Origin: Eutreptiella sp. 'Long Island Sound 2002'
Taxonomy: Eukaryota; Euglenozoa; Euglenophyceae; Eutreptiales; Eutreptiaceae
DNA length: 64,000 nt
Direction: 5' to 3'
NCBI GenBank assembly: GCA_964036045.1
Contig: OZ038382.1
Coordinates: 140,442,961-140,506,960, forward strand
Shown here: piece by piece, positions 6,871 to 55,699 of the stretch
Layout: each line of letters opens with the position of its first letter
How positions within the stretch are numbered: the first letter of the stretch is position 1
Made by a program: the position numbers and the translations under genes
The notes under the pieces: generated by a model
Told to the model about the DNA's origin: nothing
What the model saw: the letters and a program-made list of their open reading frames with translations, nothing else
Database searches by the model: none

Positions 6871-9478
6871 TAAGACATAAAGAGGACGGGAGGATCCCGG
6901 TTGTTGCCCTGGCACTTCTGCCACCGTGGGAGCATAGCACATATACCGAGGCCATCTGCACAGGTAATCAGGGGGAGGTAGGATAGGAACTGAAAACAAT
7001 GAGATCCCGCAAGTCACCACTAAACCCAAAGGCATAGGCTCGGCGGATCAAAGATACACAAAAGCAACGCCCTGGACTAGTCTACATATAAGACCACAAA
7101 CAGGTACATGATGCTCGCCATGACCAGTATTAATCCCTTGCTCGACCCGCAGTCCCACCAACAGACTTGAGAGCGTTGGATCACTTCCAGGTAATATTGG
7201 CACTCGTGGGAGGGAGATGACACTGCACTATGACAAGCGTACACACAAACAACGAACAATGAAGAACTTTGTTTTTAACCTTTTGTTTTCAAATAATTAT
7301 TTTATTTGGGGGGGTCCAGTATCCAGGCACCAGATGAGCTCGAACCAATTTTGCCGTCGCTTTTGGTTTGCGATAATATCTTGATGGATGCGGTTGGAAT
7401 GTCCCAAGATGCCCAGAATGCGGAGAAATAAGAAAAACAAGTTCTACTAAAGGTACTAGCATTTGTTAATAAAAAAAGCACATGCGAAATACTGAAATCT
7501 CCAAACTGAGGGACCCTGCAGGGAAACAGACCTCAGCAGTGTAACCGTGACACCTACCGCGTGGCTGCGGGGTGAACTCAAATGCGACACCGGGCTGGTG
7601 GGAAAAAGTTCTAAAAGTACAAAATTTGCTACTAAAAACAGATAAAGTGTGCTAAAAATAGAACGTGCTGTACTACAAATGAGAGTAGCACTTTCGCGGG
7701 GGAATCAGAGCATTGTCACCTGCTCAGGAAGACATAAAGAGCACCGGAGGAACCCGGTTGTTCCCCCATTGTCGGAGGGTACAGCATACTCCTTGGCCAT
7801 CTGCCTAAGTAATCAGGGGGAGGTAGGATAGGAACTGAAAAGAATGAGGTACCCAAAGTCACCATTACACCTACAGGCATAGGCTCGGCAACCAGCATTA
7901 ACCCCTTGCTCGACCCGCACTCCCACCAACAGACTTTAGAGCACTCGATCACTTCGAGGCGATATTAACACTCGTGGGAGGGAGATGACACTGCACGATG
8001 ACAAGCGTACACACGAACAATGAAGAATGTAAAAGGGTTTTTTTTGAACTTTTTGTTTTTGAATATTTTTCGGTTTTTTTGGGTCCAGTATTCGGAATCT
8101 GGTTCCAAGGTTAGCTCAAACAGACGTCGCCATCGTGTCCGGCTTGCGAAAATATGGTCGTGGATCCGGTCAGAACTTCTGTAGGTGCCCACAATGCGGA
8201 GACATGAGGAACAAAACGTAATATACAAAATAGTAACATTTGTTACTAAAGGTAGCAGATGCAAAAAACTGAAATCTCCTAACTGAGGGACCCTGGAGGG
8301 AAAAGGACCTCACCCCTGCAACGGTGACACCTATCGGGTGGCTGTAGATTCAGATGAAATGCCAAACTGGGCCGTTGGGACCGAGTTCTCAAAACAGAAA
8401 ATGTGCTACTAAAAAAAGAACAGTTGTGCTGAAAATAGAACGTGCTGTGCCAAAAATGGAACTAGCACTTGTGGGGGTATTAGGACCATTGTCACCTGCT
8501 CCGAAAGACGCAAAGAGGACGGGAGGATCCCGGTCGCTCTCCTGGCACTTGCACCACTGTTGGAGGGTACCACATACACTGTGGCCCCATGCCCGGGTAA
8601 TCAGGGGAAGGTAGGATGGGAAGTGAAAAGAATGAGGTCCCTCCAGTCACCACTAAACCTAAAGGCATAGGCTCGGCGGATAAAAGATAGACAAAAGCAG
8701 CGCCGTCCACTAGTCTGCATATAGAACCACGAAGAGGTATTTGATGCTCGCGATGACCAGCATTAACCCCTTGCTCAACCAGCACTCCTACCAAAAGACT
8801 TGAGAGCATTCGATCACTTCCAGGCGATGTTGGCACTCGTGGCAGGGAGATGACACTGCACCATGACAAGCGTACAGACGAACAACGGACAATTGAGAGG
8901 GTTTTTTTTGAACTTTTTGATTTCGAATATTTTTGGGTTTTTTTGGCATTCAGTATTCCACATCCGGTTCCAGGCGCAAGAGAAGCTCAAACAGTCATTG
9001 CCATCGCGTCCGCCTTGCAACAAAGTTCTTGTTGACCCGGTCGGAATGGTTGAAGGTGCGCACAATGCTAAGAAATGAGGAACAAATGTTGCAGTAAAAA
9101 CAGCAGCATTTGTTAATAAAAATAGCACATGCAAAAAACTGAAATATCCAAACTGGAGGACCTTGGAGGGAAACGGAACTCACGAATGCAACGGTGACAC
9201 CTATGGGGTGGCTGCGGGTTCAGACCCAATACGAAACAGGGCCAGTGGGTACAAGTGCCCAAAATAGAAATTTTGCTATGAGAAATCGAACAAGTTTGCT
9301 GAAAATAGAACGTGGCGGTTAAAACTGAAATACCACGTGGGGAGGGAATCAGAGCCTTGTTACCTGCTCGGAAAGACATAAGGAGGACGAGAGGATCCCG
9401 GTTGTTGCCCTGGCACTTCTGCCACTGTGAAAGGGTACCACATATACTGTGGCCATCTGCACAGGTAATCAGGGGGAG

Positions 9479-9495
9479 CACCTATGATTTTAGCA
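9479..9495 (+). repeat. Left terminal inverted repeat of the 11-kb element
   Basis: CACCTATGATTTTAGCA is a 17/17 match to the reverse complement of 20,504-20,520. It abuts array sequence at 9,478. Confidence 0.85.
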
Positions 9496-9879
9496 AATGT
9501 TTTATCCGAAAATTCAAAATCATGCCTTTCAAGAACCGCAATATCAAATTATACACAGTAGTACTGTTGGTTTTATGTTTTCTCAAACTTTTGACAAAAT
9601 TATGCTGTCGCTGAACCTGGAGCTGCAGATAAACTGTCAACAACTGCCGCGTACGCGAGTTTCAGACTCCCGAGCGCCGTGCGCAATAGAAAACCGCCAA
9701 AAAGTCCACTTTTTTCGCAGCTGGAAGCAAAACAAAGGCATGAGCGTGTCCACGAGATCAATACCTTGCTGCTGACCCAAAAAGGTCCAGATTGGCAGGC
9801 ACAGATGTTCAGAAATTCACACTTTTCAGGCCAAAAACCACTTTTTTCATGGTTTCAGGGTCTATCTATGGAGGCCATG

Positions 9880-9990
9880 TAGAGGGCCTTACAGGGCTGT
9901 AAGAGGTGGCATAGAGGTGATATATGAACAAACTGTCATCACCATTGGTAGGAGCTTACATGACAAGCAGTGTTTTGCCTTTATTCTAGG
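9880..9990. other. Spacer between left TIR region and satellite
   Basis: From the TIR to about 9,990 I see no gene. The 9,497-9,882 stretch has overlapping ORFs of up to 100 codons without a recognisable domain. Confidence 0.35.
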
Positions 9991-11760
9991 CTATTCATCC
10001 CTTGTCATGCACCATGGGGCCCAATATCCATATGGTTCATAGGTAGGGCTTTGATCACCTATCACCGTCCACACACATGTTTAGGGCTTGGTTCCGTATT
10101 GTATGCATTTGAATGATAAGCACTACATAAAATATGATGCTATGTGTATCAGAATGGGATGAACGTTGAACATTTGAGGGGTTTTTGGCCCTGGTTTGCA
10201 CCGTTTGTGGTCGATTTCCATATGGTTCATAGGTAGGCTTTTGCGTGCCTATCACCGTCCACACACATGTTTGGGGCTTATGTTGTTATTGTAAGCATTT
10301 GTATGATATGTGGCACATATAATATGATAGTATGTGCAAGGAAATGGGATGAACGATGAATATTTGACGTGTTTTTGGCCCTATTTTGCACCGTGTGTGG
10401 TCCAATATCCATATCGTTCATAGGTAGGGTTTTGATCACGTATCACCGTCGGCACACATGTTTGGGACTTGGGTTGGTATGTTATGCACTTGAATGATAT
10501 AAAACTACATAACATATGATGGTATGTGAATAAGAATGGGATGAACGATGAACATTTGAGGTGTTTTTGGCCCTATTTTGCACCGTTTGTGGTCCATTTC
10601 CATATGGTTCATAGGTAGGCTTTTGCGTGCCTATCACTGTCCACACACATGTTTGGGGCTTGGGTTGTTATTGTAAGCATTTGTATGATAAGTGCTACAT
10701 ATAATATGATAGTATGTGCACAAGAATGGGATGACTGATGATCATTTGATGTGTTTTTGGCCCTATTCTGCACCGTTTGTGATCCAATATCAATATGGTT
10801 CACAGGTAGGGCTTTGATCACCTATGATCCTCTACTCACATGTTTGGGGCTTGGCTTGGTATTGTATGCATTTGAACGATAATAACTACATAAAACATGA
10901 TAGTATGTGCACAAGAATGGGATGAACGATGAACATTTGAGGGGTTCTTGGCCCTATTTTGCACCGTTTGTGGTCCATTTCCATATGGTTCATAGGTGGG
11001 CTTTTGCGTGCCTATCACCGTCCACACACATTTGTGGGGCTTAGGTTGTTATTGTAAGCATTTGTATGATAGGTGCTACATAAAATATGATAGTATGTGC
11101 ACAGGAATGGGATGAGTGATGAACATTTGATGTGTTTTTGGCCCTATTCTGCACCGTTTGTGATCCAATATCCATATGGTTCATAGGTAGGGTTTTGATC
11201 ACCGATCACCGTCCACACACATGTTTGGGTCTTGGGTTGGTATTGTATTCATTTGAAGGATAATAACTACATAAAATATGATAGTATGTGCATGAGAATG
11301 GGATGTACGAGGAACATTTGAGGTGTTTTTGGCCTTATTTTGCACCATTTGTGGTCAATTTCCATACGGTTCATAGGTAGGCTTTTGCGTGCCTATCACC
11401 GTCCACACACATGTTTGGGGCTTAGGTTGTTATTGTAAGCATTTGTATGATGGGTGCTACATATGATATGATAGTATGTGCAAGGAAATGGGATGAACGA
11501 TGAATATTTGAGGTGTTTTTGGCCGTATTTTGCACCGTTTGTGGTCCATTTCCATCTGGTTCATAGATAAGCTTTTGCGTGCCTATCACCGTGCACACAC
11601 ATGTTTGGGGCCTAGGATGGTATTGTAAGCATTCGAATGCTGAGTAAGAAAAAAAATATGATACTACGGGCACAAGCATGGGATGAACAATGTAGTCCTG
11701 AGGTGTTTTTGGCCCATTTTTGCACCTTTTGTGGTCCATATCCACGTTGGACAAGTATTG
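9990..11760. repeat. 190-bp satellite in alternating A/B order, about nine units
   Basis: The phrase gtttttggcc recurs at 10,181, 10,371, 10,563, 10,753, 10,944 (variant), 11,134, 11,324, 11,514 and 11,704, a period of 190-192 bp. Two unit types alternate: type A has gttttgatcacctatcacc and type B has cttttgcgtgcctatcacc. The order is A B A B A B A B B, so the higher-order unit is a ~380-bp dimer with one terminal break. Minus-strand ORFs in the block are by-products of the repeat. Confidence 0.92.
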
Positions 11761-12033
11761 CAAATTTCTGGTCATACCTGACGTTGTTCCACACCATGCC
11801 CTTGTTGCGTGCTTTGTGTGCTAAGAGGAGGTATTTCCTTTGTATTACGCCTTCCCGGGTAAGGTGAGCGAAGGGTGAAAAGACGGTGATCGAACATGAG
11901 ATTGCTCCACACCACGTATTCTAATATACAACGATTGTCTTACTGCCTTCATTCCCTTGTTGCGTGCTTTTTGTGCCAAGGGCTAAGCAATGGCTCCTTC
12001 CAAGAAGAAAAAAGGTGGTGATTCTAAAGCCTG

Positions 12034-12630
12034 ACATGCCAGCCTTGGTGCCTGCCGATTGTCATATAGGCAAGGGGGACGTGGAAGAAGGGGCGGAACA
12101 AGGAGAAGGCGGAGCATGGGAAAATTGGGAAAATTTGGACCGGGAGCTAGAAAGGCTCCTTGCAGGGCATTGTGTTAAGGAAGACCAAAGTGTTGAAGTC
12201 GGGACATTCAATTACATCAATTGTGGCGTGTCCACCAATGTGCAAACCGGTGAAAAGCGGGTCTTGCTTTGGTACGGAATGCTGATTATACCGAAAAAAA
12301 TACCGGAACCAAACAAGAACGTCCTATGCATGAGGTGCCAAATAATTACTTCTATTGATTCAAACGCGCTGACGTCTTCTCAACCTTTCCTCCTGGATTG
12401 CCCGCCTTCTTCAAGGATGGGTGTGACGTCCTGAGTGATGGGACATCCGACTACGGCGAGGCACCTTCTGATGAGAGCTCGGAAAACGAAAGTAGTGATG
12501 ATGAGGACGATGGTGACGATGTTGCGAACTCGGAGGATGGCGCAAGTAGCACACCCAAAGCCAAAAAGGAAAAGAAGACGAAAACTAAACCAAAGCCCCC
12601 GAAAGTTGAGGAAGTATACCAAAAAGAGTA
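12034..12630 (+). pseudogene. N-terminal coding part: acidic region plus Lys-rich linker
   Basis: Two frames share this stretch. From 12,034 one frame reads MPALVPADCHIGKGD and continues through a Glu-rich segment and a possible Cys pair (CMRCQ) to 12,434. From about 12,371 another frame encodes a very acidic Ser/Asp/Glu segment followed by a Lys/Pro-rich stretch ending at 12,631. A splice or a frame slip must join them; no clean acceptor was found. The composition suggests a disordered nuclear protein region. An alternative start is the ATG at 11,990, but that frame closes after 14 codons. Confidence 0.45.
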
Positions 12631-12871
12631 GGTCTCTTGATGTGTCTGAGGAGGCGTTGGCATCAAGAAAGGCCGAAGGAACTGACCATATGACGCGTAT
12701 GGAGCTGCCTAAGCAGGCAAGTGCTTACTCAAAACATTATTTGATCAAACTCCGCGAGGTCCTGTGTGTTAGCGGTATGAGTTCCAAAACGATACCAGAG
12801 ATTCTTCGAGCGCTTGGGGACAGAAGTAAGAGTGGAGGCTTCACAATCCAAAAGCTGTTTCCGCCGCACAA
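12630..12871 (+). pseudogene. Exon ending in a GTGAGC donor
   Basis: The frame reads SRSLDVSEEALASRKAEG and continues to KLFPPHKPQ, where a strong donor (GTGAGC) follows at about 12,873. The segment is mixed hydrophobic/charged and coding-like. It includes a possible helical region (HYLIKLREVL) that could be a small DNA-binding or dimerisation domain; this is inference only. Confidence 0.45.
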
Positions 12872-13084
12872 GCCGCAAGTGAGCTTCAAAACCGTGGACA
12901 TATCAATGAGCAGGGTTGGACACGCATCTATTGCTGTTCAATGCTTGCTGCTGTTGTTGCTTGCGGTTCGCCCATTTGTGGTTTCACGGTTACCACATTT
13001 GGACATGCATTGATTGGACACGCTTCATAGGCCAACAGTTCGGTGCTTTGTGTAACTTCTTGTCACTCAGGTTGAGAAGCCAAG

Positions 13085-13192
13085 AAATGCAGAGAACCCC
13101 ACCACAAAGCAAGACAAAGGCCAGAGCAATGGGGAGTGTAGTGGTAATGGACGGGAGCAAATGCAGGCAGATGAGGAAGGACGGCGAAAAGT
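13085..13192 (+). pseudogene. Small exon preceding the duplicated exon array
   Basis: After an AAG acceptor the frame encodes NAENPTTKQDKGQSNG and ends in EEGRRK before a GTACCC donor near 13,193. The composition is charged and Gln-rich, like the array exons that follow. It is flanked by an ~80-bp intron ending in TTACCAG at 13,272. Confidence 0.5.
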
Positions 13193-13272
13193 ACCCTTCA
13201 AATTTTTTCAACTGTTGTTCATTTCGCGCATACCTATCAAACTTTAGGTTTGACGTTTTCGCATGTTACCAG

Positions 13273-14838
13273 GAGCACACAGGGAGGAAGTGGAGAAGTG
13301 AGCCAGAGCAGAAGAGGACAGAAACAAGGCGGAGGCGGCAAACGGCCAAACGCAAGCGGATGAGGAGCGACAGCAGAAGTAACCTTCCAAAGTTCTGCAG
13401 TTCCTCTCTCTCAATTCTGTGCATACATATCGCGTTTATTTCTCTCCGACTGACCGAGATGGGAGTTCTTTTTTTTGCATGTCCCCGAGAGCGCACCGAA
13501 CAAGAGGAGGTGGAGAGGGGAGCTCCAAATACAGTGGAAGGGCGGTACTAGGGTCTAGGTACGCACCGACCAAAGCAAGCGGATGAGGAGCAACAGCAAA
13601 AGGTAACGTTCCAAAGTTATGCAGTTAGGGTCTGTGAATTCTGTGAATACATATCGCGTTAATTCCTCTCCCGATGACGGAGATGGTATTTTCATTTTTG
13701 CATGTCCCCGAGAGCGCACCAAACGAGAGGGGGCAAAGAGGCGAGACAGAGCGGAGTAGGACAGAAAAAAGGCAGAGGCAGTGCACCGACAAACACAAGC
13801 GGATGAGGAGCAACAGCAAAAGGTGACGTTCCAAAGTTGTGCAGTTAGGGTCTTTCAATTCTGTGCATGCATATCGCGTTAATTTCTCTCCGACTGACCG
13901 AGATGGGATTTTGATTTTTGCATGTCCCCAGGAGCGCACCGAACCAAAGGAAGCGGAGACGCGAGACAGAGCAGATGAGGACATACAAAAGGCGGAGGCG
14001 GCAAAGCGTCAAAAGCAACCGGATGAAGATCAAGAGCAAAAGGTAACCTTCCAGGAGACCACACGGAGTTCTGCAGTTACAGTCTGTCGATTCTGTGCAT
14101 ACTTATCGTGTTCATTTCTATCCAATTGACAGAGATCGGATTTTGCATTTTGCTTGTCCCCAGGTGCGCACCGAACGAGAGGAGGCAGACAGAAAGAAGG
14201 CGGAGGCAGCAAAGCGTCAAAAGCAAGTGGATGAGGAGCAACAGCAAACATTAACCATGCAAAATTCTGCAGTACCGCTCTCTCGATTCTGTGCATACGT
14301 ATCTTGTTCATTTCTTTCCAATTGACGGAGATCGGATTTTGTTTTTTGCATGTCCCCAGGAGCGCACCGAAAGAGAGGAGGCGGACAGAAAGAGGGCAGA
14401 GGCGTCAAAGCGTCAAAAGCAAGTGGATGAGGAGAAACAGCAAAACGTAACCATGCAAAAATCTGCAGTACCGGTCTCTCGATTCTGTGCATACGTATCC
14501 TGTTCATTTGTTTCCAATTGACGGAGATCGTTTTTAGTTTTTGGCATGTCCCCACGAGCTCACAGAACAAGAGGAGGCGGACAGAAAGCAGGCGGAGGCA
14601 GCAAAGCGTCAAAAGCAAGTGGATGAGCCGCAACAGCAAAAGGTAACCATCCAAAGTTTTGCAGTAACGCTCTCTCGATTCTGTGCATATGTATCATGTA
14701 CATTTCTTTCCAATTGACGGAGATCGGCTTTTGTTTTTTGCATGTCCCCAGGAGCACACAGAACGGGAGGAAGGGGAGAAGCGACAATAGAACCCGCAAA
14801 CGCAAAACGTCAACACGGCATCAGAACGCAACACCGAA
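13273..14838 (+). repeat. Serial array of about eight duplicated small exons
   Basis: Exon copies start at 13,273, ~13,489, 13,713, 13,932, 14,164, 14,360, 14,556 and 14,752. Spacing is ~220 bp at first and then exactly 196 bp three times. A full copy encodes a charged helix such as ERTEREEADRKRAEASKRQ followed by KQVDEEKQQ. Exon 4 is 111 bp (37 codons) and exons 5-7 are 87 bp (29 codons), so inclusion or skipping keeps the frame. Introns of ~109 bp start GTAACC and end TGTCCCCAG. Decay is visible: exon 1 has TGA, exon 3 TAG, exon 5 has lost its GT donor, exon 7 has CAC for CAG at its acceptor, exon 8 has TAG at 14,788. Exon 2 carries an inserted antisense scrap of the 15.7-kb exon. Confidence 0.85.
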
Positions 14839-14999
14839 AGCGAGGGTCCCGACATTATCGCTCTTCCACCGCCTCCACCATTCAGCTCAAAGCAAACAGA
14901 GCCGCTCAAGCTTTTGGCATTCCTGCCACTGTACCCCTCAGCAAAATGCAGGATGATCCGCCTGTCCAACAGCCACCACACCAGCCACTCTTCAAACGC

Positions 15000-15350
15000 T
15001 TGGCAACAGAGAACAGGATCCATGTGAGGTTTCATTGGTGTCAAAAAAGACGCAGAGTTGCGGGGTTCTGACAGTGTCATGCAGGCAGCCATGTGCTCTT
15101 GTGAGCTCCAAATACAGTGGCACAGCAGTACTTGGATGCAGGCACCAATCAGCGTTGTGGCAACCATTTCGCATACCACGCCACGTTGCTGTAGGCTTTT
15201 TTTTGATTTCATTTGTCCTAAGATGCTAGAACCTTCCAGACCGGCAGCCATGTGCTCTTGCGAGCTCCAAATACAATGGTAGGGCGGTAACAGGGTACAG
15301 GCACGGATCAGCGCTGTAGCAACTATTTCACATACCACTGCACGTTGCTG
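15000..15350 (-). repeat. Two inverted partial copies of the downstream core exon
   Basis: Read on the minus strand, 15,174-14,992 encodes CLHPSTAVPLYLELTRAHGC and then LCVFFDTNE. This parallels the plus-strand core exon at about 15,745-15,860 (PDPSTALPLYLELARAHGC, LCVLFDANE). A second, shorter inverted copy lies at about 15,237-15,340. Both sit in a ~165-bp direct duplication that also repeats the intron end ttgtcctaag/atgct. A further scrap is at about 13,521-13,560. Confidence 0.75.
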
Positions 15351-15381
15351 TAGGCTGTTTTTGGATTTTCCTTTTCCTAAG

Positions 15382-16437
15382 ATGCTACAATCCTCCAGAC
15401 CCGGACGGCCCAAACTGCCTGAATGGCAGCTTTCACAGAGATCTCTGGCCAACAGAAGGAGTCTTGCGAGGTCGTATGCAAAGCAGTTGCATTGCGGGCA
15501 CCTGATTGCGGAGCATGAAGTCAAGCGATCACTCAATCGAGACAGACTGAGGGCAAGACCGGCCACATTTGAGCAATTGAGGGGAACCCTCATTGCAAAG
15601 TCTACGACCCATGATGCATGGGAAGATTCCATTCACGCGGGCAGAAATAATGATGGCAATGGTCAGGGGGTGTATAGGACAGGCGTGACCAATCTCATGC
15701 AGCTTTTGACAGCTGACATGGGGATTGCCACCACACCGGTAGGTGCGTATCCAGATCCAAGTACCGCCCTTCCACTGTATTTGGAGCTCGCAAGAGCACA
15801 TGGCTGCGTGCATGGCGCTGACAGAGGCCCGCAGCTCTGCGTTCTCTTTGACGCCAATGAAATGTACGAGCGCCGCAAATGCCAGGTGCTGAGCGTACAT
15901 CTACCGGAAGCACGTGAGCCACAGCAACTTCGTCTGCAACTTCCCCTCGCGGAGGACCCGGACCAGGACGATCACACGACCACCTCGTCGCAGTTTGAGC
16001 GCATGGACCTGCTTCCTGCCGTTGAAAGGGCGTTAGAGAGCGGCTGCGGTGGTGAAAGCATGGAGCTGGTTTTTTCTCCTGATTATGCAGCCTACTACCG
16101 AACCACAGGGACGCCTCCACCAACAGCAGATTGCTGTTGCGTGGAGTGCTATGGTTCAAAAAAACTGTGGAAGCGCCCTGACTAGATTCGGAAGCCTTTG
16201 CCGGATTTTCACAACTACCCATCACGCTGCGCTCCCTTCTTTCGCCTTATGAAATGTCGCCTCAACAGGGTGTATGATGTACACCACTGCAACCATCACC
16301 TGTTGGCAAACGGGCTGATCCACCTCCTGTGGTTGTGGACCAGAGCAAACCTGCCTGAGGAATACATTGTCCAATTGAAGACAATTTTGGGGGAGCATTT
16401 TACGCGCTTTCCGTACTACCCACGCTTCAAAGAAGCT
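15382..16437 (+). pseudogene. Core exon of the 11-kb element gene
   Basis: After a TTTTCCTAAG acceptor the frame reads MLQSSRPGRPKLPEWQLSQR and stays open to a TAG at 16,183. The same frame then continues (IRKPLPDFHNYPS...) through DVHHCNHHLLANGLIHLLW to about 16,430. Notable parts are a basic start, LCVLFDANEMYERRKCQ in the middle, an acidic patch (EDPDQDDH), a Cys cluster (ADCCCVECYG) and a His-rich helical segment. A Gln codon in place of the TAG would restore one exon of about 350 codons. The layout (a D-containing core followed by a helical His-rich region) recalls large eukaryotic transposase-like proteins, but no catalytic triad can be assigned with confidence. Confidence 0.5.
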
Positions 16438-16438
16438 A

Positions 16439-16999
16439 TTGGCAAAAGGGACTGGTCACCCCCAACACATTGTCACGAAGGATATCCTGAAGGAGGATTC
16501 TTTTTGGAGAGCCCTGGCTGATCTGTTCCCACGAACGGCAAATGGTCTCACAGTCAAACAGAACGGTGAGATTCTGCAGGATCCAATAAACCGATATTTG
16601 AAACTGATGCGCATTCTGATGGTCAAACTGAACAGCTGGAATCCGGAGGTTGTTGACCAGCGTCATGACATGTGCCGTGAAACACACCAGCTCTTTTAAG
16701 ACCTCGGCTTTCACCTGCGCTGGTTTGGAGTCCCAAATTATTATTGTTTGGAGCACTACACCCCCCGGCTGCGCAAACATGGCAACCTCGTGGGCATGTC
16801 ATCGGAGGGGGGCGAGCATGTCGCCCAGCCCCACTCCAAGATTGTGCAAAACCGCCCCTGTCACCCACGAGGGAAATGCCCAGTGGGTCTGTTGGAGATC
16901 ATGAAGCAGGTCAGGCTCTGGTTAGGGCTGTGGAGGCAAGGCTGGCTGTCTCCAACTCTCTCGTACACGCATGAACCGAAATCGCCAGCTGACAATTAG
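16439..16999 (+). pseudogene. Core continuation after a frame slip
   Basis: The frame changes near 16,440 and continues as AKGTGHPQHIVTKDILKED, then ALADLFPRTANGLT, a TAA at 16,697, then DLGFHLRWFGVPNYYCLEHY and RKHGNLVGMSSEGGEHV. The last part resembles a segment found in many uncharacterised transposase-like proteins: a hydrophobic helix, then H...G-x-L...S-x-x-G-x-E. A donor-like GTCAGG near 16,909 or GTATAC at 17,002 may end the exon. Confidence 0.5.
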
Positions 17000-17177
17000 C
17001 GGTATACCACCTTCTTGCCACCACATCCCTTGGCTTGTGATATATATACTACGTTTGGCCATTCTTGCTAATGTTGCTAATGTTTCATTGTTTATGGATT
17101 GGGGTAGATTTTGGAACGTATTCATGCTGATATTTTCAGTACCCCTCTGTATCTCTCTCCCCTTTTGTCGTCCACAG

Positions 17178-18011
17178 GATCCATTGAAGAGAGCCAATGG
17201 GGTGGCGGTGGCGTTGATGAAGCCCCTGATTGACGCAATTCAGAAATTGGGCAGAAGTCTGTGGTACGACGTGACTGGCAGCTCAAGGGACTGTGGAATC
17301 CCCGCTGCTGACATCATCAGGCATCTTGAGCTGATCTGCCCTGTGCTCGGAATGGCTTGCCCCGGTGCTGCCAAAGTGATAACGCTCACAGATGATCCGG
17401 TCCACCGTCAGCTGGTTAACATGGAGAGCGTGCTAATGATTTGTCTTGTGTGCTGGGGCCGAAAGGCCAGTCATTTTTGCGTAATGCATACTCTTGACAC
17501 AATTCAGTACAGCGCAACCCGTCTGTCACTGTCACCAGGTGACACTGTCTTTCTGCTAGTTGAGAAGCACTGGATGCTGCCAGAGTCGTGTCCAGGCATT
17601 AATTTTTTTGCTGCCATACCATTCTCAAATTCGCAAAATGCACCATTCGTGCCCGACGATAGCTGTTGGATCACCAAACATTTACGGCGGTCCAGTGTGA
17701 CCTGGAGTGACCTGCAGCACGGTGACACTGTGCAGATGTATGACGGCCTAAGCAATGCTTCAGTTCTGCTGCACACTCAGTTGTTGTGGAGGTCCACTGT
17801 GTGTTGTTCCGGTCTGTCGCAAAAAGGGCAGTTCCTGTTCCCAGGCAGGTGGACAGTCCAGCTTGAACGGGGCGTCACTGTTTTAGTATTAGCCGTGGTT
17901 ACTACCAATCCAGCTTCCTGGGATGTCATCGGCGTCTGTGCATCCTGCTGTACGGCAGTGCAGGCAGACTTCAGACTCGGAATCCAGCCTCAGAGAAATT
18001 GCCCCGGCTGA
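17178..18011 (+). pseudogene. Second globular exon of the element gene
   Basis: A pyrimidine-rich tract and CAG at 17,175-17,177 precede an open frame starting DPLKRANGVAVALMKPL and running 278 codons to a TGA at 18,009. It is rich in Cys, Trp and hydrophobic residues, with beta-strand-like segments (GDTVFLLVEKHW, HGDTVQMYDGLSNASVLLH). No family is recognised. Another frame takes over near 17,990 and leads into the Lys/Pro-rich region. Confidence 0.5.
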
Positions 18012-18049
18012 CAAGCAGGGCTGCAAAGCAGGGAAGACCTGGATGGAAT

Positions 18050-18618
18050 GTTTGTATTCTGGGCAGTGCATTTATTTACAGGTTTTTCAGAGGTGTCAGT
18101 CCTGCGGTCCGCACCAGGCCAAGCGTGAACTGGCATATGAGGAAAGTCGGCGGAGCACAGGTCTCTCTGAGATCACAAACCTCAGTACCACAGCGGTGAA
18201 GAAGAAATCTGTCACTACGGATGGGAAACCGAAACCGAACCCGAAACAGAATTGAACCACAAAGCCACCACCAAAATAGAAACGAAAACCGAAACCAAAA
18301 CCAAAACCAAAACCAAAAGGCCAGAAGAACGACAGTCCACCAAGCAAAAAGCCGAAGAAGGAAGAGAGCGGCAGTGGGACGGTAAAAGAAAAAGCTGACC
18401 CTGTTCAGCGGCTCTTGGCTGCACTGCAACAAACAACCCAACAACAAAACAACCGAAAAAGCCCCCTGAAGCGCAAACGCGTAAAGGTAAAGGTAAAAAA
18501 AGTGAAAATACGAGAAAAAAAGGAAGGGTTAAATGGGAGTCAGGAGAGCACATGTCTGAGCAGGTGTCTCAGGTGTCTCAACAGGAGTCTTGGAATCCAC
18601 CTGGGCAGGTGTTCCAGC

Positions 18619-18659
<41 letters not shown>

Positions 18660-18929
18660 CGGCTGCAGATGCAGATGCAGACCCAAGTGCAGCAGCAGCA
18701 GCAGCACCAGCAGATGCACCAGCAGGCCCAGCAGCAGCAGCAGCAGCAGCAGAATATGGGTCCTTTGCAAATGAACATGCCAGTTGCCATACCAATGGCC
18801 ATGCCAATACCAGCCATGAACATGCACCACCACCAAATGCCCATGCAGCCCATGCAACCCATGCAGCAGCTTTGTTCGACCATGAACAGCATGCAGCCCT
18901 CTGGTTTTCCAATGCAGCGGCACTATTAG
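18050..18929 (+). pseudogene. Lys/Pro-rich and Gln/Met-rich C-terminal tail
   Basis: One frame gives a KPKPKPKPKG-type stretch (18,240-18,330), a Lys/Ser-rich segment and RLLAALQQTTQQQNN. Near 18,540 the coding frame shifts to EHMSEQVSQVSQQESW, then a CAG-repeat Gln tract (18,617-18,760) with one TAG at 18,630. It ends in a Met/Pro/Gln-rich tail (QMNMPVAIPMAMPIPAMNM) that stops at 18,927-18,929. The CAG microsatellite also produces Ala- and Ser-runs in the other frames. An A8 run near 18,513 is a likely site of the frame slip. Confidence 0.55.
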
Positions 18930-19075
18930 CAGCGCCTGCATATATGTCTTTTCTTTTTTTCCCTTTCCAAAAAAAGACTTTGTGCTCTATAGAGCTTGGA
19001 GACTTAAGTTTATTGCTGTGTTTGTGAATACAGCAGGACTATATCTCTGGAAGTGCAGATGCCTCAGCTCTGTGT

Positions 19076-20075
19076 TCATTATGCACTTTGTGCGATGTTG
19101 AACTGATTGAGAGAACCAGATGCTCAGATGCTCAGAGTGGTGCGGCTTGTTGCGATCGTCCTTTGTTTTCATTACCATTGGTGGTTCCTCTGATTGGAAT
19201 GCACAAACGTTTTGTAGGATAATTGACGACCGCCGAGGTCGGGGACGGACCCACTGAAACGTGTTGGCAGTTGTTTTGGGTCAACTTATCGGGGGTTGCA
19301 GGGACGCCAGCACAAGAAAAGAAATCAGTTTTTGCCCAAAAATGGCCACGAATTGCCAATTTTGTGCCGAAAGCAGTGTTTGTTTTGGTATTCATTACGC
19401 ACTTTGTGCGATGTTGAACTGATTGAGAGAACCAGATGCTCAGACGCTCAGAGTGGTGGGGCTCGTTGCGATTGTCCTTTGTTTTTATTATCATTTGTGG
19501 TTCCTTGGATTTGAATGCACGAACGTTTTGTAGGATGATGGGCAACCGCAGGCGTCGGGGACGGACCCACTGAAACGTGTTTCCAGTTGTATTCGAGCAA
19601 CCTATCGAGCGTTGCAGGGCCGCCAGCACAAAAATAAAACAGTTTTCGTCCCAAAATGGTCTAAAGTTGCCATTTGTTGCCGAAAATAGTGTTCTTCTGG
19701 CCGGGGTCATGAGTTGTAGGGGCCCATACCCTATTGTGAGGGTGCCTGACCCACTGTCGCATGTTTGGAATTGTATTGGAGCAAACCATTGGGGGTTCCA
19801 GGGCCGCCAGCACAAAAAAAACAGTTTTCGCCCAAAAATGGCCAAAAAATGTCACTTTTGTGCCGAAAATAGTGGTTTTTGGCCAGGGCCGTGAGATGTT
19901 GGGCCCCATACCCTATTCTGATGGTGCCCAACCAACCAAAATGTGTTCAGAGTCGTATTGGAGCATTTTATGGGGTGTTGCAGGGCCGCCAGCACCAAAA
20001 GAATCAGCTTTCGTCCAAAAATGGCAAAAAAATCCCAAATTTTGGCTAAAAACAATGTATTTTTGGAGAACAATT
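19076..20075. repeat. Subterminal repeats of the 11-kb element
   Basis: A ~315-bp unit is tandemly duplicated: cactttgtgcgatgttgaac recurs at about 19,084 and 19,399. A shorter block, containing gggccgccagcacaaaa followed by ttttcgcccaaaaatggcc, occurs at about 19,288, 19,606, 19,789 and 19,977; the last three are spaced about 185 bp. Repeats just inside the TIR are common transposase-binding regions in large DNA transposons; that role is inference here. Confidence 0.8.
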
Positions 20076-20199
20076 GGGTAAGAGGAACCCGCCTCTCCTA
20101 TTTGGGGGGTGTATGATTACAAAAAAAAATTTTCTTTGGTCGCATTGGGCACAAAACCTATTTTCATGGTTTTTTTTGTGCCTATACTATACTGTACAA

Positions 20200-20380
20200 G
20201 TACACTGGTGTGCAGCACTGTTCTGCAGCACCACCCCAGAGAAGACAAAAATACTCGGAAATAGGCCAAATTCCAGGGTTTTTGATGGTTTAGAAGAACG
20301 CTGGGGCACTGTTCTGCAGGACCAGCCCAGAGCAGGCAAAAACACCCCAAATAGGTCAAGCTTCAGGGTTTTTGATATTT
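20200..20380. repeat. Short ~92-bp duplication near the right end
   Basis: The text cactgttctgcag...ccagagaagacaaaaa...ccagggtttttgat at about 20,215-20,290 is repeated, with changes, at about 20,307-20,375. Confidence 0.65.
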
Positions 20381-20503
20381 ATGAACAAACCCCGGGTAAG
20401 AGGACCCCCCCCATTTCTTTTTGGGCCGTAGAAACCAAAAAAATAGGTCATTTTACGCGAAAGTCCCCTTTTTGATGACTTTTTGAATTTTGGGAAAAAC
20501 AGC

Positions 20504-20520
20504 TGCTAAAATCATAGGTG
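20504..20520 (-). repeat. Right terminal inverted repeat of the 11-kb element
   Basis: TGCTAAAATCATAGGTG is the perfect reverse complement of 9,479-9,495. It is followed directly by resumed array sequence (ggcaggataggaactg). Confidence 0.85.
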
Positions 20521-22975
20521 GGCAGGATAGGAACTGAGAACAATGAGATCCCTCAACTCACCACTAAACCTAAAGGCATAGGCTCGGCGGATCAAAGATA
20601 CACAAAAGCAACACCGTGGACTAGTCTACATATAAGACCACAAACAGGTATATGTTGTTCGCCATGACCAGTATTAACCCCTTGCTCGACCCGCAATCCC
20701 ACCAACAGACTTTAGAGCGTTGGATCACTTCGAGGTAATATTGGCACTCGTGGGAGGGAGATGACACTGCACCATGACAAGCGTACACAGGAACAATGAA
20801 CAAGGGAGACCTTTGTTTTGAACGTTTTTGGTTTCAAACATTCTTTCTTGTTTTGTGGGGGGTCCGGTATTCAGAATCCGGTTCCAGGCAGGGGATGAGC
20901 TCAAACAATTTTTGCCGTCGCGTCTGGTTTGCGATAATATCTTGATGGATGCGATTGGAATATCCCAAGATGCCCAGAACGAGGAGAAATCAGAAAAACG
21001 ACCTCTAGCAAAAGTAGTAGCATTGGTTAATAAAAATAGCACATGGGAAATACTGAAATCTCCAAACTGAGGGCCCCTGGAGGGAAACACACCTCAGCAA
21101 TGTAACCCTGACACCTATCACGTGGCTGCGGACTGGGGTCAACTGCAAAATGGGGCCGGTGGGCACAAGTTCTGAAAGTAAGAAATTTGCTACCAAAAAA
21201 AGAACAAGTGTGCTAAAAATAGAACCTGCTGTACTAAAAATGAGACTAGCACTTCAGGTGGGAAACAGAGCATTGTCACCTGCTCCGAAAGACATAAAGA
21301 GCACTAGAAGATTCCAGTTGTTCCCCTGGCCCTTCCCCCATTGTCGGAGGGTACCACATACACCTTGGCCATCTGCCCAAGTAATCAGGGGGAGGTAGGA
21401 TAGAGACTGAAAAGAATGAGGTCCCTCCAGTCACCATTAAACCTACAGGCATAGGCTCGGCGACCAGCACTTCCCCCTTGCTCGATCCGCACTTTCACCA
21501 ACAGACTTTGAAGCATTGGATCACTTCCAGGCGATATTAACACTCGTGGAAGGGAGATGACACTGCACCATGACAAGCGTACCCACGAATAATGAAGAAT
21601 TGAGAAAGCTTTTTTTGGAACTTTTTGTTTTTGAATATTCCCTTTTTTTCCTTGGGTCTAGTATTCTGAATCCAGTTCCAATATGAGGTCAATCAGACGT
21701 CGCCATCGTGTCCAGCTTGCGAAAATATGGTCGTGGATCCGGTCAGAATTTCCCAAGGTGCCCAAAATGCAGAGACATGACGAACCAAACGTAATATACA
21801 GAATACTACAATTTGTTACTAAAGGTGGCACATGCAGAAAGCTGAAATCTCCAAAATGAGAGACCTTGGAGGGAAAGGGACCTCACCTATGCAACCTTGA
21901 CACCTATCGGGTGGCTGCAGATTCGAATGAAATGCCAAACGGGCCCAGTGGGAACGAGTTATAAAAAAAGAAAATTTGCTACTAAAAAAACGACAAGTGT
22001 GCTGAAAATCGAACGTGTGGTACTAGAAAAAAATAGCACTTGTGGGGGTACTCAGAGCATTGTCACCTGCTCTGAAATACGCAAAGATCCCGGTCGTTCG
22101 CCTGGCACTTCCACCACTGTGGGAGGGTACCACATACACTGTGGCCCCCTGCACAAGTAATCAGGGGCAGGTAGGATAGGAAGTGAAAAGAATGGGGTCC
22201 CTCCAGTCACCACTAAACCTAAAGGCATAGGCTCCGTTGAACAAAGATAGACAAAAGCAACGTCGTCGACTAGTCTACAAATAAGACCGGGAAAAGATAT
22301 ATGATGCTCACCATGACCAGCGATAACCCCTTGCTGCACCTGCACTCGCCTCAACAGAATTGAGAGCATTGGATCAGTTCCAGCCGATATTAACAGTCGT
22401 GGGAGGCAGATGACACTGCGCCATGACAAGTGTACGCACGAACAATGAATAATGGGGAAGTTGTTTTTTGAACTATTTGTTTAAAATACTTTTTTGGGGG
22501 GTCCAGTATTCCGAATCCGGTTCTAGGCGCAAAATGAGTTCACAAGGATGTCCCCATCGCATCCAGCTTGCAAAAATATGGTCGTCGATCCGGTCACAAT
22601 GTCCCAAGGTGCCCACACTGTGGAGAAATGAGAAGAAAAATGTTCTATTGAAAATGGTAGCATTTGTTACCAAACATTGAACATGCAAAAAAGTGAAATC
22701 CCCATACTGAAGGACGCTGGTAACGAAGGGACCTCACCAATGCAACCGGGATTCCGACGAAATGCGAAACAAGGCCGGTGGGAACGAGTACTAAAAAGCA
22801 TTACTGCTACCAAAAATAGATCAAGTGTGCTGAAAGCAGAATGTGGCGTGCTAAAAGTAGAAATAGAATTTTGGGGGGGAACTCGCACAACCCGTGGTCC
22901 CCAGTGCGTCTCGCAACCTGCAAATAGGCCAAACCGCTCCAAAGAGTGGCAAAAAACAAAGAGATAAAAGAAAGT
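20521..22975. repeat. Tandem array B, continuation of the ~800-bp repeats
   Basis: The array resumes mid-unit at 20,521 and runs through about three units. Landmark cattgtcacctgctc is at 21,272 and 22,060 (788 bp apart); other blocks follow the order seen in array A. The array fades near 22,860-22,975, where new sequence begins. Minus-strand ORFs of ~125 codons recur at the same place in units (8,492-8,869 and 22,052-22,429) but have no recognised domain. Confidence 0.88.
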
Positions 22976-24769: not shown

Positions 24770-27700
24770 GCATGTGGCCAGCGGGCCCCGGCTGCCCACC
24801 TGAAGCGTGGGCAGCCGGGGAAGGGAGGGCGCCTGAACCCAGACGCCCCCCGCCACCCCCGCGGCGCGCAGCCCCCAGCAAGGCATGCAAGCAAAGGGAC
24901 CAGTGCTGGGCCCCCACAACCACACACCCACGCCCACAGCACGTGGGTAGCGGACCCCGACAGCCCGCCCACAGGGCGGGCAGCTGGGGGAGGGGGAGCG
25001 CCTGACCTCAGACGCCCCTCACAAGGGCGGAAAGCACCCCCCCGGGGACGCCCTTCCGCCACCCCCGCAGCGCGCAACGACGGGTCGCAAGGGCGCGCAC
25101 TGTGGGGCCCACACCAACCGCATCCGGGACACACGGGCCGCGGAACCCCGGCTTCCCGGCCAGGAGAACGGGCGGCCAGGGGAGGGACAGCGCCTGACAC
25201 CAGATGCCGCTCACAATGGTGGCTGGCCACCCCCCCCGGGGACGGCCTCTGACCTTCCCCGCGGCACGTAGCCCCCAAAAGGGCATGCAAACCAAGGGGA
25301 CAGTGCAGGGCCCCCACATCGGCACACCCGCGCCCACAGCACTTGGGTAGCGGACCCTGACACCCTGCCCAGAGGGCGGGCAGCGGGGGGAGGGGGAGCG
25401 CCTGGCCTCAGACGCCCCTCACAACGGCGAAAGGCACCCCCCCTGGGGACGCCCTTTCGCCACCCCCCCCGCGCGCAACAACTGCTCGCAAGGGCGCACG
25501 CTGTGGGGCTGGTGCTGGGTCCCCACGCCAACACCAACCGCTCCCGGGACGCACGGGTCGCGGAACCCCGGCCGCCCGCCCCAGAGGACAGGAGGCCGGG
25601 GGAGGGACAGCGCCTGACACCAGACGCCCCTCACAACGGTGGAAGGCCACCCCCCCCAGGAACGGCCCATCACCATCCCCGCAGCACGCAGCCCCCACAG
25701 GGCATGCAAGCCACAGGGACAGTGCTGGGCCCCCACACCCGCACACTCGCACCCACAGCACGTGGGCGGCAGACTCCGACAGCCCGCCCTGAGGGCGGGC
25801 AGCCGAGGGAGGGGGAGCGCCTGAACCCAGACGCCCCTCACAACAGTGAAAGGCACCCCCATCGGGGACGCCCTTCCGCCAACCCCATGGCGCGCAACAA
25901 TGGCTCGCAAGGGTGCACACTGTTGGGCCGGAGCTTGGCCCACACGCCCACACCAACCGCACCCAGGACACACGGGTCGTGGAACCCCGGCCGCCCGCCC
26001 CAGCGGACGGGCGTCCGGGGGAGGGACAGCGCCTGACACCAGACGCGGCCCACAACGGTGCAAGGCCGGCCCCCCCGGGGATGGCCCCCCACCACCCCCT
26101 CGGCACGCAGTCCCCACAGGGCATGCAAGCCAAAGGGACAGTGCAGGGCCCCCACACCCGCACACCAGCGCCAACAGCACGTGGGTAGCGGAACCCGACA
26201 GCCCGCACAGAGGGCGGGCAGCCCGGGGAGGGGGAGCGCCTGGCCTCAGACGCCCCTCACAACGGCGCAAGGTAGCCCCTCCGGGGACGCCATTCAGCTA
26301 CCCCGGCAACGCGCAACGACTGCTCGCAAGGGCGCACGCCTCGGGGGCTGGTGCTGGGTCCCCACGCGCACACCAACCGCACCCAGGACACACGGGTCGC
26401 GTACCCCCGGCCGCCCGTCCCAGAGGACGGGCGGCCGGGGGAGCGACAGCGCCTGACACCAAACGCCCCTCGCGACGGTGGAAGGCCAACCCCCCCGAGG
26501 ACGGCCCGCACCAACCCCGCGGCACGCAGCCCCCCACGGGGCATGCGAGCCAAGTGGACAGTGCTGGGCCCCCACACCCGCACACTGGCGCCCACAGCAC
26601 GCGGGTGGCAGGCCCCCACAGCCCGCCCAGAGGGCGGGCAGCCGGTGGAGAGGGAGCGCCTTGCCTCAGACGCCCGTCACAACGGCGCGAGGCACCTTCC
26701 CCGAAAACGCCCTTCCGCGACCCCCCAAACGCGCCCTGACGGCTCGCAAGGGCGCACGCTGTGGGGCCGGTGCTGGGTCCCCACGCCCACACCAACGGCA
26801 CCCGGGACACACGTGTTGCGGAACCCCGGCTGCCCGCTACAGAGGACGGGCGGCCGGGGGAGGGACAGCGCCTGACACCAGACGCCCCTCACAACGGTGA
26901 AAGGCCATCCCCCCCAGGGACGGCCCCCCGCCACCCCCGCGGCACGCAGCCCCCAGAGGGCATACAAGCCAAGGGGACAGTGCTGGGCTCCCACAACCGC
27001 ACACCCGCACCCACAGCACGTTGACGGCGGACCCCGACAGCCCGCTCGGAGGGCGGGCAGCCAGGTGAGGGGAGGCGCCTGAACCCAGACGCCCCTCACA
27101 ACGACGAAAGGCACCCCCCCCAGGGGACGCCCTTCCGCCAGCCCCACGGCGCGCAACAACGGCTCGCAAGGGCGCACGCTTTGGGGTCTGTGCTAGGCCC
27201 CCACCGCCCATACCAACTGCACCCAGGACACACGGGTCGCGGAAACCCGGCCGCCCGCCCCAGAGGACAGGCGGCCGGGGCAGGGACAGCGCCTGACACC
27301 AGACGCCCCTCACAACGGTGGAAGGCCAGCCCCCCCGGGGACGGCCCCCCACCATCCCCGCGGCACGCAGCCCCCACAGGGCATGCAAGCCAAGGGGACA
27401 GTGCAGGGCCCCCCCACCTGCACACCCGCGCCCACAGCACGTGGTTAGCGGACCCCGACAGCCCGCCCAGAGGGCGGGCAGCCAGGGGAGGGGGAGCGCC
27501 TGGCCTCAGACGCCCCTCACAACGGCGCAAGGGAGCCCCCCCGGGGACGCCATTCTGCTACCCCCGCAACGCGCAACAATGGCTCCCAAAAGCGCACGCT
27601 GTGGGGCCGGTGCTGGGTTCCGCACGCCCACATCGACGGCACCCAGGACACACGGGTCGCGGACCCCCGGCCGCCCGTCGCAGAGGACGGGCGGCCGGGG

Positions 27701-29570
27701 GAGCGACAGCGCTACACACCAGACGCCCCTCGCGACGGTGGAAGGCCACCCCTTCCAGAGGACGGCCCCCACGGACCCCGCGGCACGCAGCCCCCCACAG
27801 GGCATGCGAGCCAAGGGGACAGTGCTGGGCGCCCACACCCGCACATCCGCGCCCACAGCACGCGGCTGGCGGGCCCCGACAGCCCGCCCAGAGGGCGGGC
27901 AGCTGGGGGAGGGGGAGCGCCTCGCCTCAGACGCCCCTCACAACGGCGCAAGGCTGCCCTCCCGGAAACGCCCTTCCTCCACCCCCGCAACGCGCCCCTG
28001 TGGGGCTGGTGCTGGGTCCCCACGCAGACACCAACCGCACCCGGGACACACGGGTCGCGGAACCCCGGCTGCCCGCCCCAAAGGACGAGCGGCCGGGGGA
28101 GGGACAGCGCCTGACACCAGACGCACGCCCCTCACAACAGTGGAAGGCTAGGCCCCCCCGGGGACGGCCCCCCACCACCCCCGCGGCAAGCCGCCCCCGA
28201 CAGGGCATGCAAGCCAAGAGGACAGTGCTGGCCCCCCACACCCGCACACCCGCACCCACAGCACATGGGTAGTGGACCCCGACAGCCCGCTCAGAGAACA
28301 GGCAGCCGAGGGACAGGGAGCGCCTGAACTCAGGCGCCCCTCACAACGGTGAACGGCACCCCCCCAGGGGCGCCCTTCCGCCACCCCCACAGCGCGCAGC
28401 GACAGCTCGCAAGGGCGCACGCTGTGGGAATGGTGCTGGATCCCCCCGCCCATACACACGGGTCGCGGAACCCCGGCTGCCCGCCCCAGAGGGCAAGCGG
28501 CCGGGGGAGGGACAGCGCCAGACACCAGACGCCCCTCGCCGCGGTAGAAGGCCACCCCCCCCCGCCCGGAGACGGCCTGCACCACCCACATGGCATACAA
28601 ACCAAGGGGACAGTGCTGGGCCCCCACGCCCGCACACCCGCGCCCACGGCACGCGAGTAGCGGACCCTGACAGCCCGCCCAGAGAGCGGGCAGCCGGGGG
28701 AGGGGGGGCGCCTGAACTCAGACGCCCCCCACAACGGCGAAAAGCACCCCCCCCGGGGATGCCCCCTCGCCACCCCCACAGCGCGCAACGACGGCTCGCA
28801 ATGGCGCATGCTGTGGGACCGCCGCTGGGTCCCCGTGCCCACACTAACCGCACCCCGGACACACGGGTCGCGGAACCCCGGCTGCCCGCATCAGAGGACG
28901 AGCAGCCAGAGGAGGGACAGCGCCTGACGCCAGATGCCCCTCACAAAGGGGGAAAGCCACCCCCTACAGCACCCCCGCGGCACGCAGGGCCCCCCAGGGC
29001 ACACAAGCCAAGGAGACAGGGCGTGCTGACCCCACACCCGCACACCCGTGCCCGCAGCACGTGGGTAGCGGACCCCCACGGCCCACGCGGAGGACGGAAA
29101 GCCGGGGGAGGGGGAGCGCCTGAACTCAGACGCCCCTCGCAGCAGCAGACAGCAACCCCCCCGGGGACGCCCTTTCGCCACCCCCACAGCGTGCAACAAC
29201 GGCTCACAAGGGCACACGCTGTGGGGCCAGTGCTGGGTCCCCAGGCCCACACCAACCGCACCCGGGACACACGGGTCGCGGAACCCTGGCCGCCCACCCC
29301 CCAAAGGACGGGCAACAGGGGGAGGGAGAGCGCCTGACACCAGACGCCCCTCGCAGCAGTGGACTGCCAGCCCCCAGGACAGCCCCCCAGCACCCCAACA
29401 GCACGCGGCCCCCCGCAGAGCATGCACGCCAAGGGGACAGTGCTGTGCCCCCAAGCCCGCGCACCCGCGCCCACAACACGCGGGTGGCGGACCCCGGCAG
29501 CCCCCGAGAGGAGGGCAGCGGGGGGAGGGAGAGCGCCTGACCTCAGACGCCCCTTGCAACGGGGCCACCA
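24770..29570. repeat. GC-rich satellite with a 420-bp dimeric unit, ~11-12 copies
   Basis: The phrase gggacagcgcctgacacc recurs at 25,184, 25,604, 26,023, 26,443, 26,862, 27,283, 27,703, 28,101, 28,509, 28,914 and 29,324. The period is 419-421 bp, then 398-410 bp toward the right end where small deletions accumulate. Each unit has two related halves of ~210 bp: one begins agggacagcgcctgacacc and contains ggcatgcaagccaagggg, the other begins agggggagcgcctgacctc and contains ggctcgcaagggcgcacgc. Each half has a hairpin, for example gcccgcccagagggcgggc. Because 420 is divisible by 3, frames stay open for hundreds of codons on both strands; those ORFs are artefacts. The array ends about 170 bp before the LINE-like ORF. 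Confidence 0.93.
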
Positions 29571-33423: not shown

Positions 33424-34270
33424 GGGGAGGACGCGGCGGATGACGCCCTATGGCTCCTCTCATGGAACCTGCGCAACAGCCTCGTCTCACCAGACCGGTT
33501 CTTCCGGGACACGCTCCGGCGGCGCCGGGGGCCGGCGGCCTGTACGGACAAGGAGCACCTCATCACCGGCATGCTACCCCGGTAGGGTGGCTTTGCCATC
33601 ATGCTCCAGGAAACAGGGATCGCCACCCGGGCGCAGGAGATGCACGTGGCCGCGGCGCTCCGGGACAAGGGGTACACCCCCTTCTTCAGGGGCCGGCTGA
33701 CAGAGACAGGGGTAACCTCCACCTCGAGGAGGGGAGGCCTCCTCACCGCGGTCAGCAGCACTTACGTCGAGGAGCACTAGGTCCTCAGTTTCACGGAAAT
33801 CGTCCCCGGTAAGGCCGCGGCCCTGGAGATCCGCACGGACGGGCAAGGCCTCACCCTGATCAATGTCCACGGGCCGCAGGCAGGCTGCTCCCCATGGGCG
33901 GGAAGGGCGGCGTTCAGGGCCGACATACAAATGTATGCCACGGTGCGCAGCCTCGGTGGGAGACACCCGGTGGTCATCGCCGGCGACACCAACATCTACA
34001 GGGATGCGACCACCAACCTGGCCACAGAGCACTTCCGAGCGGGCTGGGAGGCCTGCGGTATTCGGAGGGCCACGTCATGCGACGTGGAGGACATTCTGCC
34101 CACGCTTCACCCCTCCCGGCACAGGGTGGACACCTTCCTGGTCAATGAGCCCCTTTTGTCGTGGTCCCTGCGGGAAAGCGTCTGGGCCCGCGGCATGGCA
34201 CACCCCCAGGTGGTCGGGTCGGACCACTTCCCGGTCCGCCTGGCCCTGCCAGGCCTCCTCAACGCGGCAG
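33424..34270 (+). pseudogene. APE-type endonuclease domain of the LINE
   Basis: Diagnostic motifs appear in order: LLSWNLRNSL (Asn of motif 1), MLQETGI (catalytic Glu), TLINVHGP, VVIAGDTNIYRD (GD-x-N), HRVDTFLV (R-x-D) and GSDHFPV (S-D-H). All expected catalytic residues are present. Two TAG codons (33,583 and 33,778) interrupt it at places where Gln fits. This domain nicks the genomic target to prime reverse transcription. Confidence 0.85.
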
Positions 34271-55260: not shown

Positions 55261-55299
55261 GGACGCTCCGGTGGGGCCCAGGACCTGGTTTTTTGGGTA

Positions 55300-55560
55300 C
55301 GTATCCGAAAAGGGGGACGTGAATACCGGGGGGTATTGGATACTGGCGCCACCATATCTATAGTGGCCAAGAAAATCTTACCTTGTGGGAGCCTGAAGAA
55401 CACCATGACCACCGCAGCTATACAAATGGGGGATGGAGATGTGGTGCACAGCTGCGGAGACTGTGAAGTGGAGGTACCTATCGGCTCCCGGACTATCGCT
55501 CATCGGTTCTATGTGATGGATACTGAGGCCTCCGACTTTGTATTAGGGACTTACTTCTTT
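55300..55560 (+). pseudogene. Retroviral-type aspartic protease domain
   Basis: YWILDTGATISIVAKKI-type text at about 55,332-55,370 carries the D-T-G-A active site. FYVMDTEASDFVLGTYFF (about 55,510-55,557) is the flap-to-second-hydrophobic-Gly region. It lies between gag and RT as in Ty3-type elements and would cleave the polyprotein. No stop interrupts it. Confidence 0.8.
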
Positions 55561-55699
55561 GTGCAGCAATCCCAGATACAATCCCCGACGCTGCAAGCGC
55601 CCTACCTCCTCTACGTGGACCACGGCAATGGCAGAGAGTCTGTGCCGCTGGAGCAGTCGGAACATACCTCGAGCTACCTGAGGGTATGGAAGGAGGAGC

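Follow-up and report, generated by a model that had tools for sequence, protein, structure and literature searches.

What interrupts a tandem repeat array for 11 kb and then lets it resume, and which enzyme might have placed it there? The question is raised by the 64,000-nucleotide stretch of contig OZ038382.1 analyzed here (positions 140,442,961 to 140,506,960; hereafter, the window), in which positions 9479..20520 hold an 11,042-bp insertion bounded by terminal inverted repeats (TIRs). In our reading, to which we assign a probability of roughly 0.87, this insertion is a copy, once autonomous and now decayed, of a cut-and-paste DNA transposon that is present in many copies, encodes a DDE transposase of RAG1/Transib architecture and duplicates one base pair (bp) of its target.

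Ends and target array of the insertion

The window contains a single CACCTATGATTTTAGCA, at 9479, and a single reverse complement of it, at 20504-20520, which bears out the perfect 17-bp inverted termini claimed by the original prediction, an earlier note made from the sequence alone. Including this perfect part, the TIR arms of the window copy (left, 9479..9519, plus strand; right, 20480..20520, minus strand) are 80% complementary over 41 nt. The target array occupies 7000..9478 on the left and resumes at 20521..22856 on the right, as judged by landmarks whose spacing alternates between ~777 and ~870 bp (a dimeric unit of ~1.64 kb). Landmarks across the element lie 11,911-11,916 bp apart, and subtracting 11,042 bp leaves 869-874 bp, in agreement with the restored period of 873 bp noted earlier. 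The array also continues on both sides of 9,478/20,521 in the assembly, contrary to the concern that it might not. When the window flanks were joined and compared with four other array units, they contained one additional G at the junction and were otherwise ungapped there.

A family of copies with fixed ends

A search of the genome (2.28 Gb, 2205 contigs) for the TIR with at most one mismatch returned 872 forward and 832 reverse matches (1,704 in total), against 0 and 0 for a reversed-pattern control, which excludes a chance origin of the family. Among the matches listed (100 places, all on contig C1), 28 head-to-head TIR pairs less than 15 kb apart, spanning 330 bp to 12,687 bp, were fetched; one with three reverse TIRs (L033) was dropped, and the window copy was added to give the 28 copies compared. 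Other copies sharing both ends therefore exist, the absence of which had been named as grounds for abandoning the proposal; together with the continuing array, they support a large TIR-bounded DNA transposon that has satellite arms and an apparently intron-containing gene of its own.

The perfect part of the TIR measures 26-41 bp in 20 of the 28 copies and 17-23 bp in the other eight, the window copy included, and the consensus of the family ends holds for ~40 bp. Judged by eye, 27 copies pair an end resembling the left of the window copy with one resembling its right beyond the TIR, the exception being L015, one end of which diverges after ~32 bp. All 56 ends compared read CAC..GTG, a count that is not independent, as every end was picked by the TIR pattern with at most one mismatch; the boundary is nonetheless supported because the target duplication adjoins it.

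Long copies measure ~9-12.7 kb and carry satellite arms. Four (L028, L029, L031 and L032) combine the same arms with a different ~5.4-kb middle that lacks the transposase and is 99% alike in L028 and L029; these are presumably non-autonomous passengers. In the L028 element, this apparently non-autonomous kind shows the TIRs and satellite arm of the family around a repeat-rich, unrelated middle at about 2.5-7.9 kb. Short derivatives occur among L014-L027, the smallest of which (L018, 330 bp) is MITE-like (miniature inverted-repeat transposable element) and made of both arms. Identity in the core exon of the transposase is 91-92% between the window copy and other copies, against 96.7-98.8% among L055, L059, L061 and L067 (longest pairwise alignments), so the window copy looks older.

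A one-base target duplication

In 24 of the 28 copies, one and the same base flanks the element directly outside its left and its right TIR. When flanks were re-paired 2000 times, one shared base arose in 7.4 copies on average and in 15 at most. Two exact shared bases were found in eight copies (re-paired mean 2.3, maximum 9), three in one copy, four in one, and five or more in none. In the window copy, the target site duplication (TSD) consists of the G at 9478..9478 and the G at 20521..20521, as placed by comparing the flanks with empty units.

The alignment of copies and the search for empty units, both proposed with the original prediction, gave the same answer: empty units are preserved, and 1 bp is duplicated. 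For four insertions, the joined flanks were compared with paralogous empty sites, using four of five spanning matches for the window array, nine of 16 window matches for L032, eight of 17 for L042, and the single match for L031; the alignments included neither the L033 matches of L032 (8) and L042 (3), nor the one match that L023 has in L010, nor those of L044 to the flank on its own right side. The joined flanks were one base longer than 4/4 (window), 7/9 (L032), 6/8 (L042) and 1/1 (L031) units. The L031 empty unit matches 49311-49524 of the window. The empty units of L032 and L042 belong to a 419-bp GC-rich repeat, also found at 24.9-29.3 kb of the window, and both copies occupy the identical position of this unit in opposite orientation. 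Window positions 24946-29562 form a tandem array of such ~419-bp, GC-rich (~73%) units, the home type of these two insertions elsewhere. Across insertion sites, there is a tendency to a C-rich left and a G-rich right flank, suggesting a compositional preference, and individual target sites show no palindromy beyond chance.

Transib elements have a TSD of 5 bp, EnSpm/CACTA elements one of 2-3 bp and the P element one of 8 bp. Neither the 2-3 bp of EnSpm/CACTA nor the 2-5 bp of the wider CMCT clade corresponds to the single base found here, and no copy of the 28 shares the 5 bp of Transib and RAG-like elements or the 8 bp of Zisupton (KDZ), P element and hAT. In its workings we regard the family as a RAG-fold DDE transposon; we have not filed it as Transib, RAG-like or EnSpm because these TSD lengths were tested and not found.

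A transposase with the predicted fold of RAG1

The core exon of the transposase (15382..16999, plus strand) runs from GRPKLPEW to the stop after LPADN, as defined by P0001, a relative known as a database protein. Three plus-strand codons correspond to its catalytic residues: the first Asp at 15850..15852 (FDANEMY; P0001 D56, in the first strand of the predicted model), the second Asp at 16081..16083 (SPDYAAY; D133, which precedes CxxC by 19 residues, the D708-C727 distance of RAG1) and the Glu at 16814..16816 (SSEGGEH; E377, which follows the second HxxxxH histidine by 20 residues, the H942-E962 distance of RAG1). The zinc motifs of P0001 are CVEC and HYFLEH, and the layout is conserved, with constant spacing to D and E wherever both motifs were found. 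The C(2)C and H(3-4)H motifs that define CMCT are likewise present between the second D and E.

Fold evidence comes from the predicted model of P0001, which adopts the RAG1/Transib fold; RAG1 ranked first in the fold search, with nearly the whole model covered. The transposase is predicted to be a DDE enzyme whose RNase-H fold harbors a helical, zinc-binding insertion (CxxC ... HxxxxH) that separates the second Asp from the Glu. EnSpm, Chapaev, Plavaka and similar lineages, which are not known to have a solved structure in the PDB, did not appear in the fold comparison, and the nearest named lineage may be among them.

The profile search suggested earlier was carried out, but Pfam transposase models gave no match; exon pieces, the read-through core, family members and the open reading frames (ORFs) of L061 all matched no known Pfam family. 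Weak matches to MdcG_N (E 0.0062, in 2/14 members) and DUF5447 (E 0.0038 in P0025, under its cut-off) were discarded as unrelated, and other weak matches lay above 0.01. One relative stems from a marine microbial transcriptome set. Phage records, viral contigs and GTDB species contigs yielded no relative in scans that detect only relatives keeping the peptide patterns. Exact TIR matches in viral contigs (five stretches, L001-L005) were set aside, being about the number estimated by chance for a collection of that size.

Gene content and its state in the window copy

Both arms have the repeats described in the original prediction: a dimeric left-arm satellite at 10021..11744 (period 190/381 bp), common to long and deleted copies, and right-arm subterminal direct repeats at 19072..20063 (182-316 bp spacing). 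Between them, on the plus strand, lies a first coding region at 11990..12970 (MAPSKKK..., acidic/Ser-rich), which is broken in the window and a single open 328-codon frame in copy L061/L062. It is followed at 13284..14786 by a partly decayed array of duplicated exon- and intron-like units (196/220 bp), in which 111- and 87-bp exon-like stretches encoding a charged peptide lie between AG and GT. These tandem units recur in six of six other copies (L053, L055, L057, L059, L061 and L067), one of those in L053 being 86 bp. Downstream of the core exon, a second plus-strand coding region with a poly-Gln C-terminus (17178..18929) is broken in the window and consists of two long frames with one stop between them in L061; there it had no Pfam match, its first part had no PDB sequence match, and by these searches no RAG2-like ORF was recognizable.

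The claim of an intron-containing gene stands insofar as the gene is, from its sequence, apparently multi-exon, but the transposase core of the window copy is a pseudogene, interrupted by TAG at 16183-16185 and TAA at 16697-16699 and, between these, by a frameshift near 16440-16470. An alternative genetic code for the in-frame stops was considered and set aside, as P0001 has Trp at both positions. Among the 13 other long copies compared, at least one core is free of stops, the complete 437-aa core of L059. L055, L061 and L067 contain the whole core in one ungapped alignment with 2, 1 and 1 stops, respectively; core residues 48-437 are stop-free in L030; L053 and L057 have the core in two pieces; and L028, L029, L031, L032, L063 and L065 gave no match to it. 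The protein end point is identical in P0001, P0010 and P0024.

The intron-like region upstream of the catalytic exon contains inverted copies of parts of that exon (15030-15137 versus 15755-15862; 13520-13571 versus 15738-15789), one pair being 108 nt long and 85% complementary. Such copies recur as opposite-strand tblastn matches in L053, L055, L057, L059, L061 and L067, and a hairpin spanning the active-site exon could arise in the pre-mRNA. Directly before the core exon, 15084-15401 holds a 159-bp in-frame duplication with a splice-acceptor-like stretch; the number of these units seems variable among family members (one in P0009, two in P0021).

Elsewhere in the window, 33781-36184 carries ORFs resembling a long interspersed nuclear element retrotransposon (RVT_1, E 2e-21; Exo_endo_phos weak, below cut-off), and 55258-58031 contains frames for a Gypsy-like protease (below cut-off) and a reverse transcriptase, the latter interrupted by TGA. 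The dinoflagellate spliced-leader motif was not found in the window, and Rfam and tRNA searches of it returned no matches.

Alternative explanations

Several observations weigh against our reading. The flanking base differs in 4/28 pairs, and the remaining 2/9 and 2/8 units of the 419-bp repeat differ from the joined flanks by two bases or by none; two of the four empty-site comparisons fall within homopolymer runs, and one of these two, L042, requires an additional substitution. A first model (14 sequences) was poor, with a predicted local distance difference test score of 50, and Foldseek returned nothing below E 0.001. Sequence matches to RAG1/Transib were obtained neither by hmmscan, phmmer or hmmsearch nor by PDB sequence search, no Pfam transposase was matched at E<=10 in any member scanned, and relatedness to RAG1 rests on predicted structure together with motif spacing. 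Most of the long copies compared are broken or lack the transposase, with a stop-free complete core in 1/13.

It is possible, though we think it improbable, that the element belongs to EnSpm/CACTA, Chapaev, Plavaka or a similar CMCT lineage, with RAG1 ranking first only for want of PDB structures and the 1-bp TSD a local peculiarity. Its 5'-CAC..GTG-3' ends, subterminal repeats and zinc motifs would suit this account: passages of PMC12730594 describe C(2)C and H(3-4)H motifs and mostly CA..TG ends across the clade, and CAC..GTG ends in fungal EnSpm families. The same passages give TSDs of 2-5 bp for CMCT and 3 bp for those EnSpm families, against 1 bp here, and the Pfam result above also speaks against it. 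That a divergent Transib/RAG-like transposon with the usual TSD of 5 bp inserted here is very unlikely; it would share the predicted fold, and GGGAG (left) and GGCAG (right) in the window agree at 4/5 positions, but this account needs one substitution plus a 4-bp slippage deletion, whereas 5 exact bp occur in 0/28 copies, 1 bp in 24/28, and the four empty-site comparisons give +1, not +5. Blunt insertion without target duplication, with one donor base carried at one end, likewise predicts a net gain of one base and is just as hard to credit when flanking bases agree in 24/28 copies versus ~7 by chance. An artefact of assembly or of segmental duplication in place of a mobile insertion, an idea favored by the location within a tandem array, a setting prone to assembly errors, is extremely improbable: 27 other head-to-head TIR pairs have the same ends in flanks that are nearly all distinct (L032 and L042 being in the same type of repeat), and empty units are preserved.

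Proposed mechanism and significance

For a transposon of RAG1/Transib architecture with a 1-bp duplication, we propose that the transposase would bind the ~40-bp TIRs and cut adjoining the 5'-CAC of each end, with cleavage as in Transib/RAG. Both ends would be joined to the two target strands one nucleotide apart (a 1-nt stagger), and gap repair would then duplicate one base, the duplication being a single base because the joints lie only one nucleotide apart. Internally deleted and differently filled copies, which share the arms, presumably moved in trans. Such catalysis and excision chemistry would make the family a cut-and-paste transposon, and it may be active at present; the chemistry is directly testable because stop-free cores exist (L059; database protein P0001).

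We lean toward a new superfamily-level DDE lineage with RAG1/Transib catalytic architecture, in a presumed non-animal eukaryote, in whose synaptic complex the two ends would be joined one nucleotide apart. If this is true, no target duplication as short as its 1 bp would have been reported before for a RAG-fold transposase. How RAG1-type enzymes arose and how diverse they are has long been asked, RAG1 being the enzyme that cuts antibody genes, and the family would add a deep branch that matches RAG1 in predicted fold and active-site spacing but not in sequence. The stagger of strand transfer serves to characterize superfamilies, with 5 bp in the algal RAG-like element, and can apparently be 1 bp on a RAG1-type scaffold. 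We did not find a 1-bp target duplication of a eukaryotic DDE transposon described in a literature search that left subscription papers mostly outside, so the family may be published; the one paper returned concerned LINE-1 and was unrelated, and a search with the TIR letters gave no match. Passages of PMC4914335 and PMC8226300 were also drawn on.

Comparison with known transposons

KDZ, a first guess from the TIR, was dropped on TSD and fold; passages of PMC12730594 give a TSD of 8 bp for Zisupton (KDZ) and usually 8 bp for hAT. The CMCT lineages (EnSpm/CACTA, Chapaev, Mirage, Plavaka and ESTA) resemble the element in their C(2)C and H(3-4)H motifs and CA..TG ends and differ from it in their 2-5 bp TSDs and in the absence of a Pfam transposase match here; CMCT structures did not enter the fold comparison. 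With CACTA, the element also shares subterminal repeats, a known trait of that group. Transib (HzTransib) differs in its 5-bp TSD and the lack of a sequence match, whereas the long copies described here carry satellite arms. According to passages of PMC9435367, Transib-like proteins are known from bacteria, fungi and plants, and AanRAGL is a RAG-like element of the microalga Aureococcus with a 5-bp TSD, asymmetric spacer TIRs, a TIR element starting CACACCC and a RAG2-like partner. Our element, in contrast, has a 1-bp TSD, ~40-bp TIRs and no RAG2-like ORF recognizable by sequence. RAG1 itself has no detectable sequence similarity to the transposase, yet RAG1 and its RAG-like relatives (ProtoRAG/BbRAGL and AanRAGL) resemble it in predicted fold, DDE residues, CxxC/HxxxxH spacing and CAC ends.

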